Of a stretch of 58,845 nucleotides of DNA, positions 52,996 through 58,845 are shown piece by piece. The notes under the pieces were generated by a model. That model did not search any database. It worked only from the letters and a program-made list of their open reading frames with translations, and was not told where the DNA came from. Location of the stretch: positions 1 to 58,845 of the forward strand of contig CAJYNG010000012.1 of the NCBI GenBank assembly GCA_913775725.1, given 5' to 3'. The stretch comes from an uncultured Stenotrophomonas sp. (GTDB lineage: Bacteria > Pseudomonadota > Gammaproteobacteria > Xanthomonadales > Xanthomonadaceae). The translations under genes and the position numbers were made by a program. Positions within the stretch are counted from its first letter, which is position 1. Each line of letters starts with the position of its first letter.

Positions 52996-54405
52996 TCAGC
53001 CCACCCGGGCCAGCTGCGGTTGCCTGGCGCCAAGCCGGCGCCGTTCACGGGCCGGGGCGATGTCCAGTTGTTCTCGGTATTTTGCGACGGTTCGGCGGGC
53101 AATGTTCACCCCTTGGCGCGACAGCAGGCCGGCGATGGCCTCGTCGGCCAGCGGGCGGCCGGCCGGCTCGGCGTCGATCAGGCGGCGGACCATGGCCTTC
53201 ACGGCCTGGCCGGAGACGCTGGCGCCTTCCAGGCGCACGGCGAAGAAGTGCTTCAGTTCGAAGGTGCCGCGCGGGGTCTGCAGGAACTTGCCGGTGGTGA
53301 TGCGCGAGACAGTGGACTCGTGCATGCCGATTTCCTCGGCCACTTCCTTCAGTGTCAGCGGCGCCATGGCCTCTTCGCCACGCACCAGGAACGCGGCCTG
53401 ACGCTCGACGATCACCCGCGCGGTGCGCAGCAGGGTGTCATAGCGCATCGACAGGCCGCGGCTGAACCAGCGCGCTTCCTGCAGCATTTCGCGCAGTGCC
53501 GGTGCGGCCTCGCTGGTCTCGGCCAGGGCCTGTTCGTACTGGCTGTTGATCGAGACGCGGCGGCTGGTGGCCGGGTTCAGCGCCACCTTCCACTGGTCGT
53601 CGGCGTGCCAGGCGACCACATCCGGCACCACCACGGCATTGCGTTCGGGCAGCAGGCTGTCACCCGGGCGCGGCTGCAGCGAGAGGATCAGGCGCACGGC
53701 TTCGCGCACGTCGTCGATCTCGGCGTCGTGCAGGCGGGCGAGGGCGGGGTAGTCGTGTGCGGCCAGCGCTTCGAGTGCGCCGTCGAGAATGCGGGTGGCC
53801 AGGTGGCGGGCGGGAACCGCGCCATGCAGGCTGCGCAGCTGCGCCTGCAGGCCTTCGCGCAGGTCCTGCGCGGCCATGCCGGCGGGCTCACCGTGCAGCA
53901 GCTGCTGGCGGATGGCTTCGACGCCGTCGGCGGCGATGTCGAACTGGGCGCTGGCCAGCAGCTGCAGCTGGTCCAGTGGCGCCTGCAGGTAGCCGGCCTC
54001 GTCGCAGTGATCGAGCCAGAAGGCTGCGACGGCCAGCTGGCGGTCGTCCATGTCCAGCGACAGGCGCTGCAGCACGCGCAACTGCGGGTCGGTCGATTCG
54101 CCGGCAGCGATACGTGCCATGCGGTCGTCGTCGCCGTCCTGCCAGCTGGCGCCGGCCACGTCCCACATCGACGACTCCGGCAGCTCGTCGAAGGCGGCGG
54201 TGTCCATCGTGGTGGCACTGGCCTCGGTGGCATCGGCCGCGGGCACTTCGGCTTCTTCGATCTCCAGCAGCGGGTTGGAGTCCAGCAGGCGCTGGATTTC
54301 CTGTTCCAGGTGCAGGCCATCGAGCTGCAGCAGCCGGATCGACTGCAGCAGCTGCGGGGTGAGGTGAAGTTGTTGGCCCAGCTGGGTCGAGAGTGCAGCC
54401 TTCAT
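52996..54405 (-). CDS. rpoN2: RNA polymerase sigma-54 factor, flagellar copy
   Basis: A 469-residue sigma-54. Region I is Gln/Leu-rich (QLGQQLHLTPQLLQSIRLLQLDGLHLEQEIQRLLDSNPLLE), followed by an acidic region II, a core-binding domain and a DNA-binding domain with the helix-turn-helix LTLKEVAEEIGMHESTVSR and the RpoN box ARRTVAKYRE. Xanthomonads carry two rpoN genes, and the one in the flagellar locus with vemR and fleQ is rpoN2. It should read the TGGCAC-N5-TTGC promoters in this window. A LuxR-like dyad lies about 112-130 bases upstream of the ATG. Confidence 0.95.
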   Translation of the reverse strand: MKAALSTQLGQQLHLTPQLLQSIRLLQLDGLHLEQEIQRLLDSNPLLEIEEAEVPAADATEASATTMDTAAFDELPESSMWDVAGASWQDGDDDRMARIAAGESTDPQLRVLQRLSLDMDDRQLAVAAFWLDHCDEAGYLQAPLDQLQLLASAQFDIAADGVEAIRQQLLHGEPAGMAAQDLREGLQAQLRSLHGAVPARHLATRILDGALEALAAHDYPALARLHDAEIDDVREAVRLILSLQPRPGDSLLPERNAVVVPDVVAWHADDQWKVALNPATSRRVSINSQYEQALAETSEAAPALREMLQEARWFSRGLSMRYDTLLRTARVIVERQAAFLVRGEEAMAPLTLKEVAEEIGMHESTVSRITTGKFLQTPRGTFELKHFFAVRLEGASVSGQAVKAMVRRLIDAEPAGRPLADEAIAGLLSRQGVNIARRTVAKYREQLDIAPARERRRLGARQPQLARVG

Positions 54406-54728: not shown

Positions 54729-55367
54729 TCATTCCAGCTCGTGCTGGTGGCGCGCGGCCAGCAGCAGCAGATCGTTGGCGCGGCGGCAGCCGAGCGATTC
54801 CATCATGCGTGCGCGGTGGGTCTCCACCGTCTTGACGCTGATGCCGAGGTCGGCGGCGATTTCCTTGTTGCTCTCACCCTTGCCGATGCGGCGCAGGATC
54901 TCGCGCTGGCGCGGCGACAGTGCGGCGATGCCGGTAGGTTTCTCGCGACCGAGCATCGGTGCCAGCATCTTGGCGGAGATCTGCGGGCTCAGGAACACCT
55001 GGCCGGCGTGCGCGGCGCGGAGGGCCAGCTCAAGCTCCTGCGGTGCGGCATCCTTGACCAGGAACCCGACCGCGCCGCGATCGAGTGCATCGCGCACGTG
55101 TGCGGCGTCGTCGTGCATGGTCATCATCACCACCCGCGTGCCGGGGGCGCGCAGGCGGATGTCACTGAGTGCTTCCAGACCGGTGCGGCCGGGGAGTGAC
55201 AGGTCCATCAGGACCACGTCCGGGGCGTGCTGCAGGGCCAGCTGCAGTGCCTGCTCGGCATTGCTGGCCTCGGCGACGAGCTGCACGTCGGCAAACCCCT
55301 GCAGCAGCCGCGCCAGGCCGGCGCGGACCAGGGTGTGATCGTCGACGATGAGAACTCGCACAGGCAC
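54729..55367 (-). CDS. LuxR/FixJ-family response regulator
   Basis: A 212-residue regulator: receiver with D9/D10 (IVDDHTLVRAG), phospho-site D55 (LMDLSLPGRTG), MTMHDD and the lysine in FLVKDAAPQEL, then a C-terminal LuxR helix-turn-helix (LSPRQREILRRIGKGESNKEIAADLGISVKTVETHRARMMESLG). It probably starts at a GTG (55365-55367), or the next GTG two codons in. No partner histidine kinase is in the window. The adjacent dyad at 54517-54535 fits this regulator family, so it may control rpoN2 (inference). Confidence 0.93.
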   Translation of the reverse strand: MPVRVLIVDDHTLVRAGLARLLQGFADVQLVAEASNAEQALQLALQHAPDVVLMDLSLPGRTGLEALSDIRLRAPGTRVVMMTMHDDAAHVRDALDRGAVGFLVKDAAPQELELALRAAHAGQVFLSPQISAKMLAPMLGREKPTGIAALSPRQREILRRIGKGESNKEIAADLGISVKTVETHRARMMESLGCRRANDLLLLAARHQHELE

Positions 55368-55452: not shown

Positions 55453-56031
55453 TCAGCGGGCGCGGCGCGCCTCGGCCACCTGGCGACGATGCAGGCGGAA
55501 CAGATGCCGCTCCATTGCCATTTCCAGGCCATCGCCAAGACGCTGGAAACGCAGCCACAGGTAGTGACCGCCGCCACCGTCCGCTGCTTCGGCGATCACT
55601 TCCACGGGCAGGTCGATATGGTCGGGCAGCCAGTCGCTGGGCTGCAGGCGCACCAGGCCGGCCTGGCCGGCACTGGCGCCGCTGCGCGGGCCCAGCTGCA
55701 GGCGGATACCGCGGCGTGACCAGCGCACCGGGCGCAGGGTCAGCTCCTGGCCCTGCTGGCGTACCAGCCGGCCGAGCAGCACCATCGCCAGATCCAGCTT
55801 GGCCTCCAGCCGCTGCAGTTGCAGGCTGGCTTCGTTGCGGTCGTCGTGCTCGTCAACGCGACTATCTTCAACCAGCGCCAGGCTGCGCAGCAGGCCTTCG
55901 GCACTGCTGGTACGACCGGCAGCGCTGCCTGCCTGGAACTCGGCCGGCAGAGCCAGCTCGCAGCTGAGCGTTTCGTCGAACAGCTCGCTTTCGGCCGGGT
56001 GATGCAGCGACGTGGTCGGTAGTTGGGTCAT
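55453..56031 (-). CDS. Atypical PilZ-like protein of the fliS operon
   Basis: A 192-residue protein. The N-terminal half has a helix (EASLQLQRLEAKLDLAMVLLGRLVRQ), and the C-terminal half resembles a PilZ beta barrel (LRPVRWSRRGIRLQLG...GLVRLQPSDWLPDHIDLPVEVIAEA...HYLWLRFQRLGDGLEMAMERHLFRLHRRQV). The RxxxR and D/NxSxxG ligand motifs are not in their usual form, so c-di-GMP binding is doubtful. Xanthomonads have such PilZ variants near fliS. Its ATG overlaps the stop of the small gene upstream. Confidence 0.75.
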   Translation of the reverse strand: MTQLPTTSLHHPAESELFDETLSCELALPAEFQAGSAAGRTSSAEGLLRSLALVEDSRVDEHDDRNEASLQLQRLEAKLDLAMVLLGRLVRQQGQELTLRPVRWSRRGIRLQLGPRSGASAGQAGLVRLQPSDWLPDHIDLPVEVIAEAADGGGGHYLWLRFQRLGDGLEMAMERHLFRLHRRQVAEARRAR

Positions 56032-56321
56032 GCCAGCGATTCTGCCTGCAGGTAGGCATGCGCCGCGCGAAGGGAGCGCTGGCCATCGTTCATCAGTGCG
56101 GCTACTGCATCACGGCGCTGGCGGAGCAGGCCGAGCAGATTCTGCTGGCGTTCGAACAGTGCGCTGAGCGGCGCGTGGTCGGCCGTGGTCAGCGGCTGGC
56201 TGAGCAGGGCGTGCAGGGTGCTGTCGTGGCCATCGAGCAGGCTGTCAGCCTGGTCCAGGGCGTCTTCGCCCAGGGCCTTCTCGAAGGCGTCCAGCTGGGC
56301 GTGCAGTTCGTGCAGGCTCAT
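56028..56321 (-). CDS. Small helical protein, possible FliT-like chaperone
   Basis: A 97-residue, wholly helical, acidic protein: MSLHELHAQLDAFEKALGED...ALLSQPLTTADHAPLSALFERQQNLLGLLRQRRDAVAALM. Its size, its helices and its place directly after fliS, overlapping by four bases, are those of FliT, the FliD chaperone. Sequence identity to FliT is not evident to me, so the name is not assigned. It overlaps the PilZ-like gene downstream by four bases. Confidence 0.75.
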   Translation of the reverse strand: MSLHELHAQLDAFEKALGEDALDQADSLLDGHDSTLHALLSQPLTTADHAPLSALFERQQNLLGLLRQRRDAVAALMNDGQRSLRAAHAYLQAESLA

Positions 56322-56734
56322 GGTGCCACCGCCGCCGGGCGGCGCCGTTCCTGCGGGATCGCATTCCAGGCACTGTCGATCTCGCCCAGCAGCTGCAGGG
56401 ACTCATCGAGGGCGGCGCGGTCGTTGTGCAGGTTGGCTTCGGTCAGGCGCTGCAGCACGTAGTCGTAGAGGGCCGACAGATTTCCGGCGATCTCGCCGCC
56501 GGCCTCATGATCCAGTGAGCCGTTGAGGTGGCCGACGATCGCACAGACCTCGCCGATCGCCTTGCCCTTGCCGGCCTGGTCGCCACGCTCAAGGCTGGCC
56601 TGGGCGCGCCGCACGCGCTCCAGCGCGCCGGCCAGCAGCATCGCCACCAGCTTGTGCGGATCGGCATCGGCGACCGCACTGGTCACTCCCACCTGGCGGT
56701 ACTGCTCGGCATACTGACGGCTGGAACCGTACAT
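56318..56734 (-). CDS. fliS: Flagellin export chaperone FliS
   Basis: A 138-residue helical chaperone: MYGSSRQYAEQYRQVGVTSAVADADPHKLVAMLLAGALERVRRAQASLERGD...VGHLNGSLDHEAGGEIAGNLSALYDYVLQRLTEANLHND. It binds the FliC C-terminus to prevent premature polymerisation. The ATG at 56732-56734 follows AAGGAG; the upstream extension is rejected. A FliA-like promoter lies in the fliD-fliS gap, so fliS is expressed as a late gene. Confidence 0.96.
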   Translation of the reverse strand: MYGSSRQYAEQYRQVGVTSAVADADPHKLVAMLLAGALERVRRAQASLERGDQAGKGKAIGEVCAIVGHLNGSLDHEAGGEIAGNLSALYDYVLQRLTEANLHNDRAALDESLQLLGEIDSAWNAIPQERRRPAAVAP

Positions 56735-56817
56735 TCGTGATTCTCCTTGCGCGGGGTGCCGCCGGACGGTCGTGGGGACCGCTGCCGGCGGTGCGGCGTT
56801 GATTGCTGTTGCGTCCG

Positions 56818-56845
56818 TTATCGGTGCGTTACACGCCAAACTTGA
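56818..56845 (-). promoter_or_regulatory. Sigma-28 promoter of the fliS operon
   Basis: On the minus strand TCAAGTTT, 12 bases, then ACCGATAA. The spacing is one base longer than the 11-base form but fits the Pseudomonas version. The leader would be about 77 bases. Confidence 0.65.
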
Positions 56846-56862
56846 GCGTTGCACGCAGTCCT

Positions 56863-58281
56863 TTAGCGGTTCAGCTGTGCCAACTGCTGCTGCAATGCGG
56901 TGTTGCTCTGCTGCAGTTTGCCCATCAGGCTGTCCAGCGCCAGGAACTGCTTCTTGTAGCGTTCCTCGACGTTCTTCATGCGGACGTCAAGGTCCTTGCG
57001 TCGCTTGTCGATGTTGTCCAGCGTGGTGTTCAGGCCCTTGGTACGGGCGACGAAGGCGCCTTCCTTGCCCGTGGTCGTACTGACGTAACCGTCGACCATC
57101 GTGTAGAGCTTGCCGGCGCCGCCGGTATCACCGGTGATCGCCGAGCGGATCTTCTCCGGCTGGCTGGCAAGCGCCGCTGCGAATTTGGTCGCGTCCAGCA
57201 CCAGGCTGCCGTCGGCATTGGGATAGCCACGGGTCTGCAGGCCGAGCTTCTTCGGATCCAATCCATCCGCGGACAGGTCCTTCAGTACAGCGCCCATCAT
57301 CGAACGCAGCTGACTGGATGCGCCGCGCATCTGCGCATCGCCCGTCAGCGTCGCCGCTTCCTTGGTCTTGGCGTCGTACTTCGTCTCGGTATTGATGGCG
57401 GCGATCGCATCGTTGTAGGCCTTGACGAAGTCCTGCATCACCTTGGTGGCTGCAGTGGTGTCGGTACTGATCACGACCGTGCTCTTGCCCTTGACCTTGA
57501 GGTTCAGGGTCAGGCCTGGTACGGCATCGGTCACGGTGTTGCTGTCGCTGATCACCGTGACGCCATCGATGGTCAGCTCGGCATCGGCGGCCGCGGTGTT
57601 CTCCTGAAGGCTGCCAACCAGTGCGCTCAACTTCGGGTCGCTGCCACCGTATTCGAGCTTGATTGCATTGGCGGCGCCGGTCTTCTCCTGGGCGATCGAC
57701 AGGTACTGGTTGTCGCCCGAAGCGATCAGGGTCGCCTGCACGCCTTCCTTGCGGCCTGCGGCGTCGATCTTGTTGCGCACGGTGGTCAGCGTATCGCCGG
57801 CTTCCACCTCGACCTTCATCGTCTTTGCCTTGTCGCCCACACCAACGGTCAGCGTCAAGGTTCCGGCACCGAAGGTGTCAGTCTTCGGCACCGAGGCGTT
57901 GGCAATCAGCTTGTGTGCCGTGGCGAGGGATTTCACCTCTACCTGGTGCGTGCCATTGGCGGCTGCCGCCTTGGTCAAACCCTGGTCGTACAGTGCCACC
58001 GATGCCGACAGCACGTCATCGGCATTGTTGGGGCCGGCCTTGCCGGTGGCGGTTACGGTGCGGGTGTCGAAGGCTGTGGTGGCCTTCAGTGCGGTCAAGG
58101 CGGTCTTCAGCTTGTCGAAGGCCGAGGTGACGGTGCCGATCGACGACAGCTGCATCTTGGCCTTGGACTGCTGCAGGTTCAGCGCATTGTCGGCGGGCTT
58201 GCGGTCGGCCGCCACCAGCTGGCTGACGATGTCTGAAATGTTCAGGCCCGAGCCGATGCCACCGTATCCAAAGCTTGCCAT
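56863..58281 (-). CDS. fliD: Flagellar filament cap protein FliD
   Basis: A 472-residue cap and adhesin protein: N-terminal helical domain (MASFGYGGIGSGLNISDIVSQLVAADRKPADNALNLQQSKAKMQLSSIGTVTSAFDKLKTAL), variable surface domains, and a C-terminal coiled coil (VDGYVSTTTGKEGAFVARTKGLNTTLDNIDKRRKDLDVRMKNVEERYKKQFLALDSLMGKLQQSN). The ATG at 58279-58281 has AGGAG upstream; the longer frame is rejected. A sigma-54-like promoter is at 58376-58391. Confidence 0.96.
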   Translation of the reverse strand: MASFGYGGIGSGLNISDIVSQLVAADRKPADNALNLQQSKAKMQLSSIGTVTSAFDKLKTALTALKATTAFDTRTVTATGKAGPNNADDVLSASVALYDQGLTKAAAANGTHQVEVKSLATAHKLIANASVPKTDTFGAGTLTLTVGVGDKAKTMKVEVEAGDTLTTVRNKIDAAGRKEGVQATLIASGDNQYLSIAQEKTGAANAIKLEYGGSDPKLSALVGSLQENTAAADAELTIDGVTVISDSNTVTDAVPGLTLNLKVKGKSTVVISTDTTAATKVMQDFVKAYNDAIAAINTETKYDAKTKEAATLTGDAQMRGASSQLRSMMGAVLKDLSADGLDPKKLGLQTRGYPNADGSLVLDATKFAAALASQPEKIRSAITGDTGGAGKLYTMVDGYVSTTTGKEGAFVARTKGLNTTLDNIDKRRKDLDVRMKNVEERYKKQFLALDSLMGKLQQSNTALQQQLAQLNR

Positions 58282-58375
58282 GTGATTCTCCTGGTATCGG
58301 GCCTGGCCGCTAGGCGCTGGCCCGTCGTCAACGAAAATAGCGGCCTGCGCCGCTGGGTCTTGAGGACTTCGTTGA

Positions 58376-58391
58376 TGCATGCGCCGTGCCA
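58376..58391 (-). promoter_or_regulatory. Sigma-54-like promoter of fliD
   Basis: On the minus strand TGGCACG-GCGC-ATGCA. The -24 box is perfect and the -12 has one mismatch. The predicted start is about 85 bases before the fliD ATG. Confidence 0.65.
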
Positions 58392-58409
58392 ATGGTCTGG
58401 CGCAGGTTC

Positions 58410-58425
58410 TGGCACGCAGGTTGCA
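58410..58425 (+). promoter_or_regulatory. Consensus-perfect sigma-54 promoter on the plus strand
   Basis: TGGCACG-CAGG-TTGCA matches the sigma-54 consensus at every conserved position. It faces away from fliD and reads toward, and antisense to, the end of fliC. No annotated-size gene lies downstream on this strand. Confidence 0.75.
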
Positions 58426-58484
58426 GGAGGGTTGGGGCAGGGTGCGGGGACATTCACCGCGGGCTGCCGGGGGTCTGCAAAAGA

Positions 58485-58507
58485 CCCTCCCCCAATGCAG
58501 GGGAGGG
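58485..58507 (-). terminator. Likely terminator of the fliC transcript
   Basis: CCCTCCCC-loop-GGGGAGGG is an 8-bp GC stem followed on the minus strand by TCTTTT. It lies about 215 bases after the fliC stop and before the fliD promoter. Confidence 0.55.
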
Positions 58508-58598
58508 ATCAGGCTACTGACAATCGGGGGGAGACGAAGCCGCCCGGTACGTACAGTCAAAGGTACAGCGCTGAAAGAGAGGTCCGCAGGAGCGGGCG

Positions 58599-58700
58599 AT
58601 GCCAAGCCGGTTCGGGAGTGTTCCCGGGCCGGGCATGGCCCGCGCCTTCGTGCATCGTGGCTTCCGGGTTGCTGCTACCGTCGGCTTGACCCGACGGTAG
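58599..58700 (+). CDS. Candidate 33-residue small ORF behind the plus-strand sigma-54 promoter
   Basis: The ATG at 58599 follows AGGAG (58588-58592) with a six-base spacer. The ORF encodes MPSRFGSVPGPGMARAFVHR then GFRVAATVGLTRR, a basic peptide, and stops within the hairpin at 58675-58700. It has no homologue I recognise. The only support is the ribosome site and the perfect promoter about 160 bases upstream. It may simply be part of a non-coding RNA or chance. Confidence 0.2.
   Translation: MPSRFGSVPGPGMARAFVHRGFRVAATVGLTRR
58675..58700. repeat. 10-bp perfect hairpin after fliC
   Basis: CTACCGTCGG / CCGACGGTAG with a six-base loop, 21 bases after the fliC stop. No T run follows on either strand, so it may be an RNA-stabilising or SMAG-type element rather than a terminator. 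Confidence 0.65.
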
Positions 58701-58720
58701 CGGCACCTTCTTGCCGTGGA

Positions 58721-58845
58721 TCAGCGCAGCAGGCTGAGCACGCCCTGCGGCACCTGGTTGGCCTGGGCCAGCATGGCCGTACCGGCCTGCTGCAGGATCT
58801 GGGTGCGGGTCAGCTCGGCGGTTTCCTTGGCGAAATCGGTATCCT
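58721..58845 (-). CDS. fliC: Flagellin, C-terminal end (runs off the window)
   Basis: The last 40 codons of a flagellin: [20 protein letters not shown] followed by [20 protein letters not shown] and a stop. This is the conserved C-terminal D0 helix that polymerises and binds FliS. The rest lies beyond the window. Polar flagellates often have several flagellin genes, so this may be the nearest of a set. Confidence 0.93.

Follow-up and report, generated by a model that had tools for sequence, protein, structure and literature searches.

An orphan sigma-54 promoter conserved in one Stenotrophomonas lineage faces the flagellin 3' end and may drive an antisense RNA

Introduction

What is the role of a sigma-54 promoter that faces no known gene? 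The question is raised by the fliD-fliC gap at one end of a 58,845-nucleotide stretch of DNA from an uncultured Stenotrophomonas sp. (the window, by which we mean the whole stretch analyzed). Accounts of flagellar timing usually invoke sigma factors, FlgM, and FleQ. The initial annotation of this DNA pointed to a plus-strand sigma-54 site, back-to-back with the fliD promoter, and suggested that it could drive an undescribed small RNA, a small protein, or an antisense regulator of flagellin mRNA. Here, we assess these proposals by comparative sequence analysis; the features of the locus are collected in Table 1.

Table 1. Features of the fliD-fliC gap and its surroundings, with similar promoter pairs elsewhere.
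Feature	Positions or loci	Strand	Evidence
fliD	56863..58281	-	Pfam FliD_C 7.1e-50, FliD_N 8.1e-16
Inverted repeat TCAACGAA / TTCGTTGA	58328-58335 / 58368-58375		candidate activator site
Sigma-28 (FliA)-like fliD promoter, TCAAG-N14-GCCGCTA	58338..58363	-	sequence; conserved block
fliD sigma-54 promoter, 1 mismatch, TGGCACGGCGCATGCA	58376..58391	-	genome scan; conserved
Spacer between the two -24 boxes	58392..58409		sequence drifts; 17-20 bp over the 43 loci parsed
Orphan sigma-54 promoter, TGGCACG-N4-TTGCA	58410..58425	+	perfect consensus; group-1 conservation
Predicted transcription start (+1 about 58436), first bases GGC.GG	58436..58441	+	sigma-54 spacing
Conserved structured core of fliC 3'UTR	58472..58575	-	alignments, model R1 (built on the plus reading)
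Intrinsic terminator of fliC operon	58479..58507	-	hairpin 58507-58485 plus T-tract
CAGUA linker between hairpin and terminator	58515..58519	-	CAG invariant, UA at least 90%, 30 sequences
fliC 3'UTR hairpin, CGGG.GG-CUUCGUCU-CC.CCCG	58525..58546	-	family pattern scan
Long hairpin in fliC 3'UTR	58585..58650	- (tentative)	G-U columns: 4 plus, 2 minus
33-codon ORF, AGGAG before start	58599..58700	+	judged non-coding
Hairpin just after fliC stop codon	58670..58705	- (tentative)	G-U columns: 4 versus 4
Last fliC, 3' end, cut by window end	58721..58845	-	Flagellin_C 2.7e-13 (Pfam)
Unrelated back-to-back pairs (21)	L134, L136, L139, L141, L144, L146, L148-L151, L154, L156, L160, L162, L165, L166, L169, L173, L176-L178

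Results

A perfect sigma-54 site is conserved base by base in one lineage

The sequence TGGCACG-CAGG-TTGCA can be read from the window exactly at positions 58410-58425 of the plus strand, with GG and GC ten bases apart within TGGCACG-N4-TTGCW. It is the sole perfect sigma-54 match of the window, the other listed sites, that of fliD included, having 1 mismatch each, so its initial ranking as the best such site was correct. It also faces the gap and the antisense side of fliC as described, with FliD and Flagellin_C both recovered by Pfam. A scan of the whole genome (4.56 Mb) found 4 perfect matches to TGGCACGNNNNTTGCW, this one included, whereas base composition predicts about 0.014 perfect sites per window and 1.06 per genome. 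Sites with at most 1 mismatch number 67 genome-wide (the 4 perfect ones counted), versus 54 for the reversed control, and most of the 1-mismatch sites of the genome look like chance. With chance alone predicting roughly one such site per genome, the perfect match is weak evidence at the genome scale, and the real evidence is conservation.

The gap DNA was matched in 52 of the 91 genomes of the genus, and all 52 loci (L001-L050, L126, and L127; group 1) were inspected. The plus site is present in every one of them, in 48 without a mismatch and in 4 with a single one. Among the 43 loci that could be parsed at once, TGGC, G, and TTGCA are invariant, the A is kept in 42 and the C in 41, and three of the four N4 positions vary freely. 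A looser expression recovered the divergent promoter pair in 51 of the 52 loci; in L031, the plus site has 1 mismatch (TGGCATGCAGGTTGCA) and the fliD site is changed.

Identity along the gap was measured in an alignment of 51 group-1 sequences (L050 left out) with the window as reference. Mean identity is 0.99 in the -24 box and 1.00 in the -12 box, compared with 0.69 for N4, 0.62 for the inter-promoter spacer, and 0.74 for 58451-58476; for the 15 far sequences, both boxes stand at 1.00, N4 at 0.38, the spacer at 0.35, and 58451-58476 at 0.47. From the fliD -24 box to the terminator (58392-58477, 86 columns), 29 columns are conserved in at least 94% of the 51 sequences, and these include all 12 sigma-54 consensus positions (hypergeometric P of 3e-7, a value that ignores relatedness). 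Outside the consensus, 17 of 74 columns are conserved, mostly the GG after TTGCA, the +1 region, and a GTCTG block; at the predicted start, columns 58436-58438, 58440, and 58441 also reach this 94% level.

It might be argued that the site is inert, or that it is kept as the binding site of another protein, and the chance expectation of about one perfect site per genome leaves some room for this. Against it stands base-specific conservation, with the N4 gap left free, over 52 genomes, and we consider this reading very improbable. We therefore regard the plus site, on the pattern of its conservation, as a selected, lineage-specific promoter lying back-to-back with that of fliD, and we strongly infer promoter function for 58410-58425; its presence in all 52 group-1 genomes bears out the proposal of a genuine orphan sigma-54 promoter.

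The plus site is missing from the fetched second-group gaps and from loci of two other genera

FliD was found in 89 of the 91 genus genomes and falls into two groups, 52 at 68-100% identity and 37 at 35-40% (one fragment at 45%). The plus site is absent from all 28 second-group gaps fetched from these 37 genomes, where the best candidates have 3-5 mismatches (for one of them, L104, fliC was out of reach and a 400-base stretch was used). It is likewise absent from all 19 loci of two other genera that keep the tail of fliC, the best candidates in the 330 bases beside the 3'UTR element described below having 3-5 mismatches (in one of these loci, L088, a run of N falls within the 330 bases). These absences make the plus promoter a feature of one lineage.

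The initial annotation took loss of the promoter in close relatives that keep fliD and fliC as a sign against its reading. The absences fulfill this only in part, as FliD identity is only 35-40% in the second group and 49-57% in the other-genus loci, against 67-70% in the far loci of group 1, and neither set consists of very close relatives at the fliD-fliC locus.

Two further features of these loci deserve mention. Group-1 FliD is nearer to that of another genus (49-57%; L081-L099) than to that of the second group of its own genus (35-40%), which may reflect either a horizontally exchanged locus or a genus of mixed composition. Furthermore, in L084, L088, L091, and L093-L096, all from another genus, the gap upstream of the core appears by eye to consist of variable short-repeat runs in an inverted arrangement, with repeats such as GAGTGAG or ATTGGTG.

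Layout of the back-to-back promoters

The two -24 boxes, which had been placed about 20 bases apart, are separated by 18 bp in the window. A sequence resembling a sigma-28 promoter lies between the fliD sigma-54 site and the gene, apparently a second promoter of fliD, of the FliA type; some second-group gaps have TAAAG-N15-GCCGATA at the corresponding position (L101). The inverted repeat formed by TCAACGAA and TTCGTTGA beside both promoters might be the site of a common activator. The first arm is kept in the group-1 alignment, and the second is reduced to CGTTGA or less in far loci. No shared activator motif was seen by eye near the other sigma-54-like sites of the window. The sigma-54 gene (52999-54405, minus strand) and a LuxR-type response regulator (54732-55367, minus strand), which we presume to be FsnR-like, are both identified in the window by Pfam. 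Binding of FsnR to the fliD promoter is documented by EMSA and chromatin precipitation in one report (PMC9600515). Control of both promoters by a shared FleQ-bound region, as initially suggested, would be plausible.

A scan of a collection of 84,980 species for the divergent pattern yielded 49 stretches. Twenty-eight are Stenotrophomonas or Stenotrophomonas-like (L145 and L158 carry other names) and include S. maltophilia D457, S. rhizophila, S. humi, S. pavanii, and S. nematodicola; 26 of them also contain the fliC 3'UTR hairpin, and the remaining two, L145 and L152, end just past the promoter. The L145 contig is titled Bacillus subtilis SK7B5 and holds a Stenotrophomonas pair, and the title looks wrong. 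The other 21 stretches come from unrelated bacteria (Roseovarius, Chloroflexi, Rhodobacter, and others). We rejected the notion that these are palindromes or chance matches, the arms agreeing at only 13-21 of 24-35 positions, and they look like genuine back-to-back sigma-54 pairs. In one, L154 (Herbaspirillum), the plus side faces an ORF resembling an aldehyde dehydrogenase. Given such pairs in other bacteria, the back-to-back arrangement as such is not specific to flagellin.

The main rival of an antisense RNA is that the plus site acts through occupancy. Sigma-54 RNA polymerase bound there would block or insulate the region behind the fliC terminator, or the plus site would draw polymerase and activator away from the weaker fliD site, 17-20 bp off, the transcript itself being idle. 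In favor of this, the spacing between the promoters is held while the spacer sequence drifts, and the group-1 plus site has 0-1 mismatches versus 1-2 for the fliD site (the two are equal in L030 and L035). In the 28 second-group gaps, the fliD site has 0-1 mismatches in 25 and 2 in 3, which also agrees with competition. However, the bases around the predicted +1 are conserved, and occupancy alone has no need of them; roadblocking by closed sigma-54 complexes is itself conjecture. On balance, occupancy is rather unlikely.

The structured core belongs to the minus strand

The strong hairpins reported downstream of the plus promoter are present, and the question is which RNA they belong to. In minus-strand order, the conserved core consists of the hairpin CGGG.GG-CUUCGUCU-CC.CCCG, the CAGUA linker, and a terminator with its T-tract. 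The poly-A that precedes the first hairpin on the plus strand is this T-tract, and the terminator-like 10-pair hairpin, CCCTCCCCTGCATTGGGGGAGGG-TCTTTT, is on the minus strand. Terminator-like sites number 4, versus 0.3 in shuffled sequences; three are on the minus strand, and the sole plus-strand one lies inside fliC. Terminator stem and T-tract occur in all 30 aligned sequences, which represent three genera.

The element extends well beyond the promoter. The hairpin pattern CGGNGGGAGACGAANCC matched 42 of 395 family genomes in 3 of 54 genera, with 0 matches for the reversed control, and the covariance model of the core matched 43 of 395 in 4 of 54 genera, 21 of them in the own genus and 22 in others (the match in L100 being, by eye, to the terminator only). 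A class-wide search with this model returned the own genome only (1 of 274). In the 19 other-genus matches fetched, the element lies just after fliC, and FliD is encoded in the same stretch in all 19 (2.3 kb away in L098). The element, at 58479-58546 of the minus strand in the window and present in L081-L099, is conserved over three genera of the family and comprises a hairpin with the loop [A/C]UUCGUCU, CAGUA, and the terminator. The central hairpin is repeated in the fliC-fliC gaps of 7 loci; L050 (234-862) has three full tandem copies of the core, 180 bases apart, and one partial copy, each with a minus-strand terminator by eye. Within the genus, most far loci match the gap stretch at 74-77% identity along its length, L046 and L048 reach 85% over 58466-58604, and the hairpin columns of far loci have identities of 0.91-1.00. 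Conservation in other genera that lack the plus promoter indicates that the fliC 3'UTR does not depend on it.

Base pairing points the same way for the core. In the genus alignment, the core pairs comprise 582 Watson-Crick cells, 12 A-C on the plus strand (that is, G-U on the minus strand), no G-U on the plus strand, and 6 others; the 12 departures fall in 6 pair columns. Covariation is modest, with 3 of 25 pairs changed on both sides. A mixed alignment (A2) gave 40 G-U on the plus strand, 15 on the minus strand, and 38 others, and this count was set aside because its outer stem is not common to other genera and was forced by the model. For the two outer hairpins, cell counts on the plus versus minus strand are 80 versus 2 and 38 versus 5, figures inflated by the G-U pairs of the plus-folded reference itself. 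Counted by columns, neither of the two favors one strand (4 plus against 2 minus for the long hairpin, 4 against 4 for the other). The hairpin at the end of the ORF, 58670-58705, is real, with compensatory changes at 9 of 15 pairs among 36 near loci.

The minus reading of the core rests chiefly on the T-tract and on the genera without the promoter. A plus-strand small RNA gene coinciding with the core, the basis on which model R1 was built, was dropped in view of the minus-strand terminator, the promoterless genera, and the minus-type wobble pairs. The downstream hairpins are thus best explained chiefly as the end of the flagellin message, with the core best read on the minus strand; they had been seen correctly, but the initial downstream reading should largely be reversed.

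These data also bear on a trans-acting small RNA transcribed from the plus promoter and regulating other messages. The plus strand folds strongly (z of -4.2), but the minus strand does so alike (z of -4.6), and the 73-base minus-strand core alone is not unusual (z of -1.6). The long hairpin has no minus bias in its G-U columns, and the GTCTG block at 58473-58477, which lies beyond the terminator, is kept in group 1 and was not seen in other genera. On the other side, all wobble departures in the core are of the minus type, genera that lack the promoter still have the core hairpin and terminator, the leader unique to the plus RNA is mostly unconserved, and positions 56000-58845 have no Rfam match up to an E value of 1. 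We judge such a free-standing RNA to be quite improbable. The GTCTG block would suit an activator site equally well, lying about 110 bp before the start of fliD.

What remains on the minus strand is a conserved, structured fliC 3'UTR that ends in an intrinsic terminator, as expected of a FliX-like RNA, and it may itself be an undescribed FliX-like small RNA. Apart from the loop's own site, a genome-wide search for its 10-base complement returned 5 sites, of which one (L211) immediately precedes the ATG of a long ORF; nothing convincing as a seed target emerged.

The 33-codon ORF is not conserved as a gene

An ORF preceded by AGGAG is present, as noted initially, and the proposal of a small protein found no backing. 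A length of 33 codons is shared by 23 of 36 near loci, the start codon is lost in L017, L048, and L050, and the length of the ORF ranges from 16 to at least 100 codons across loci; residues are unrelated in far loci, so that start, frame, and residues all fail to be conserved, and its product has no Pfam match. Translation of a 33-residue protein from the sigma-54 transcript, for which the AGGAG shortly 5' of the ATG and the length kept in those 23 loci speak, is hard to credit for an ORF that also sits within hairpins.

A possible antisense RNA against the flagellin 3' end

The best explanation, which we put forward tentatively, is a sigma-54-dependent antisense RNA that would start at about 58436 and cross the flagellin terminator and 3'UTR. 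By sequence, the orientation is antisense: the plus promoter opposes the terminator, the 3'UTR, and the gene of fliC. Among the options first listed, antisense to flagellin fits best, the small protein being unsupported and the free-standing trans-acting RNA weakened. The region unique to the plus strand, 58451-58476, mostly drifts, so the useful part of the transcript, if any, would be the overlap, which favors cis-antisense action (or transcriptional interference) over action in trans. The search for a plus-strand terminator ahead of fliC gave nothing convincing, and the RNA could therefore be long, short-lived, or weak.

Under this explanation, 58410-58425 would be an active sigma-54 promoter divergent from that of fliD, and transcription from about 58436 would run into the end of the flagellin operon, producing RNA antisense to the fliC terminator and structured 3'UTR. 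The RNA, driven by RpoN, would be made when the middle flagellar genes come on, flagellin additionally needing FliA. It would then base-pair with fliC messages at their 3' ends, or RNA polymerases would collide there; as a result, flagellin output would be lowered or delayed, or the 3'UTR would be kept from acting as a small RNA. Sequence, conservation, and geometry of the site are observed, whereas the RNA and its length, timing, pairing, and effect are inferred only.

Published mutants touch on the timing. One study of S. maltophilia found that every flagellar gene assayed was lowered by mutation of rpoN, and fliC by mutation of fliA (PMC8229486), and these effects suggest that an RpoN-driven RNA would be made before or beside flagellin expression. 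The same source assigns fliD to class II and fliC1 to class IV, whereas another places fliC in class 3 and fliD in class 4 (PMC9600515); this disagreement weakens the timing argument and reduces our confidence in the antisense explanation.

A more elaborate version, which we find unlikely, is a two-RNA switch. In it, the flagellin message would end in a conserved 3'UTR small RNA (loop CUUCGUCUCCC), and a sigma-54 antisense RNA that one Stenotrophomonas lineage acquired would pair with this RNA end to end, so that the 3'UTR RNA or the message would be held back until FliA-driven flagellin outgrows the antisense RNA.

Discussion

Several known RNAs resemble parts of this arrangement. CJnc230 (FlmE) of Campylobacter jejuni is likewise an RpoN-dependent flagellar RNA at the middle-to-late switch, but it arises by processing of the flgE message, in the sense direction, and its target of repression is flgM (PMC11187230), whereas the putative RNA here would have its own promoter, facing the flagellin 3'UTR. 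FliX of Escherichia coli derives from downstream of fliC, like the minus-strand 3'UTR here (PMC10578931). No sequence relation between the two is known; the Rfam scan had no match. We know of no opposing sigma-54 promoter at the FliX locus. In Xanthomonas, of the same family, deletion of the small RNA sX13 changes fliC mRNA, but sX13 lies at another locus, next to polA, and is described as trans-encoded (PMC3771888). Between them, CJnc230 and FliX are precedents for RNAs of both kinds in flagellar cascades; neither is known to have the present layout.

Cis-antisense RNAs arise from an opposite-strand promoter at the 3' end of a gene. Compared with these RNAs in general, the promoter considered here is distinguished by its dependence on sigma-54, as predicted, and by lying back-to-back with another flagellar sigma-54 promoter. 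The segments upstream of fliC1, fliC2, and fliC3 were tested in a study of the three S. maltophilia flagellins (PMC8998449), and our searches of open-access papers found no description of the plus promoter or of the fliC 3'UTR element.

If the antisense explanation is right, an RpoN promoter would have been kept only to transcribe against the flagellin message, which would add an RNA step to the flagellar cascade. The fliC 3'UTR element, found in three genera and repeated between flagellin genes, is a second, separate candidate for RNA control of flagellin in the family.
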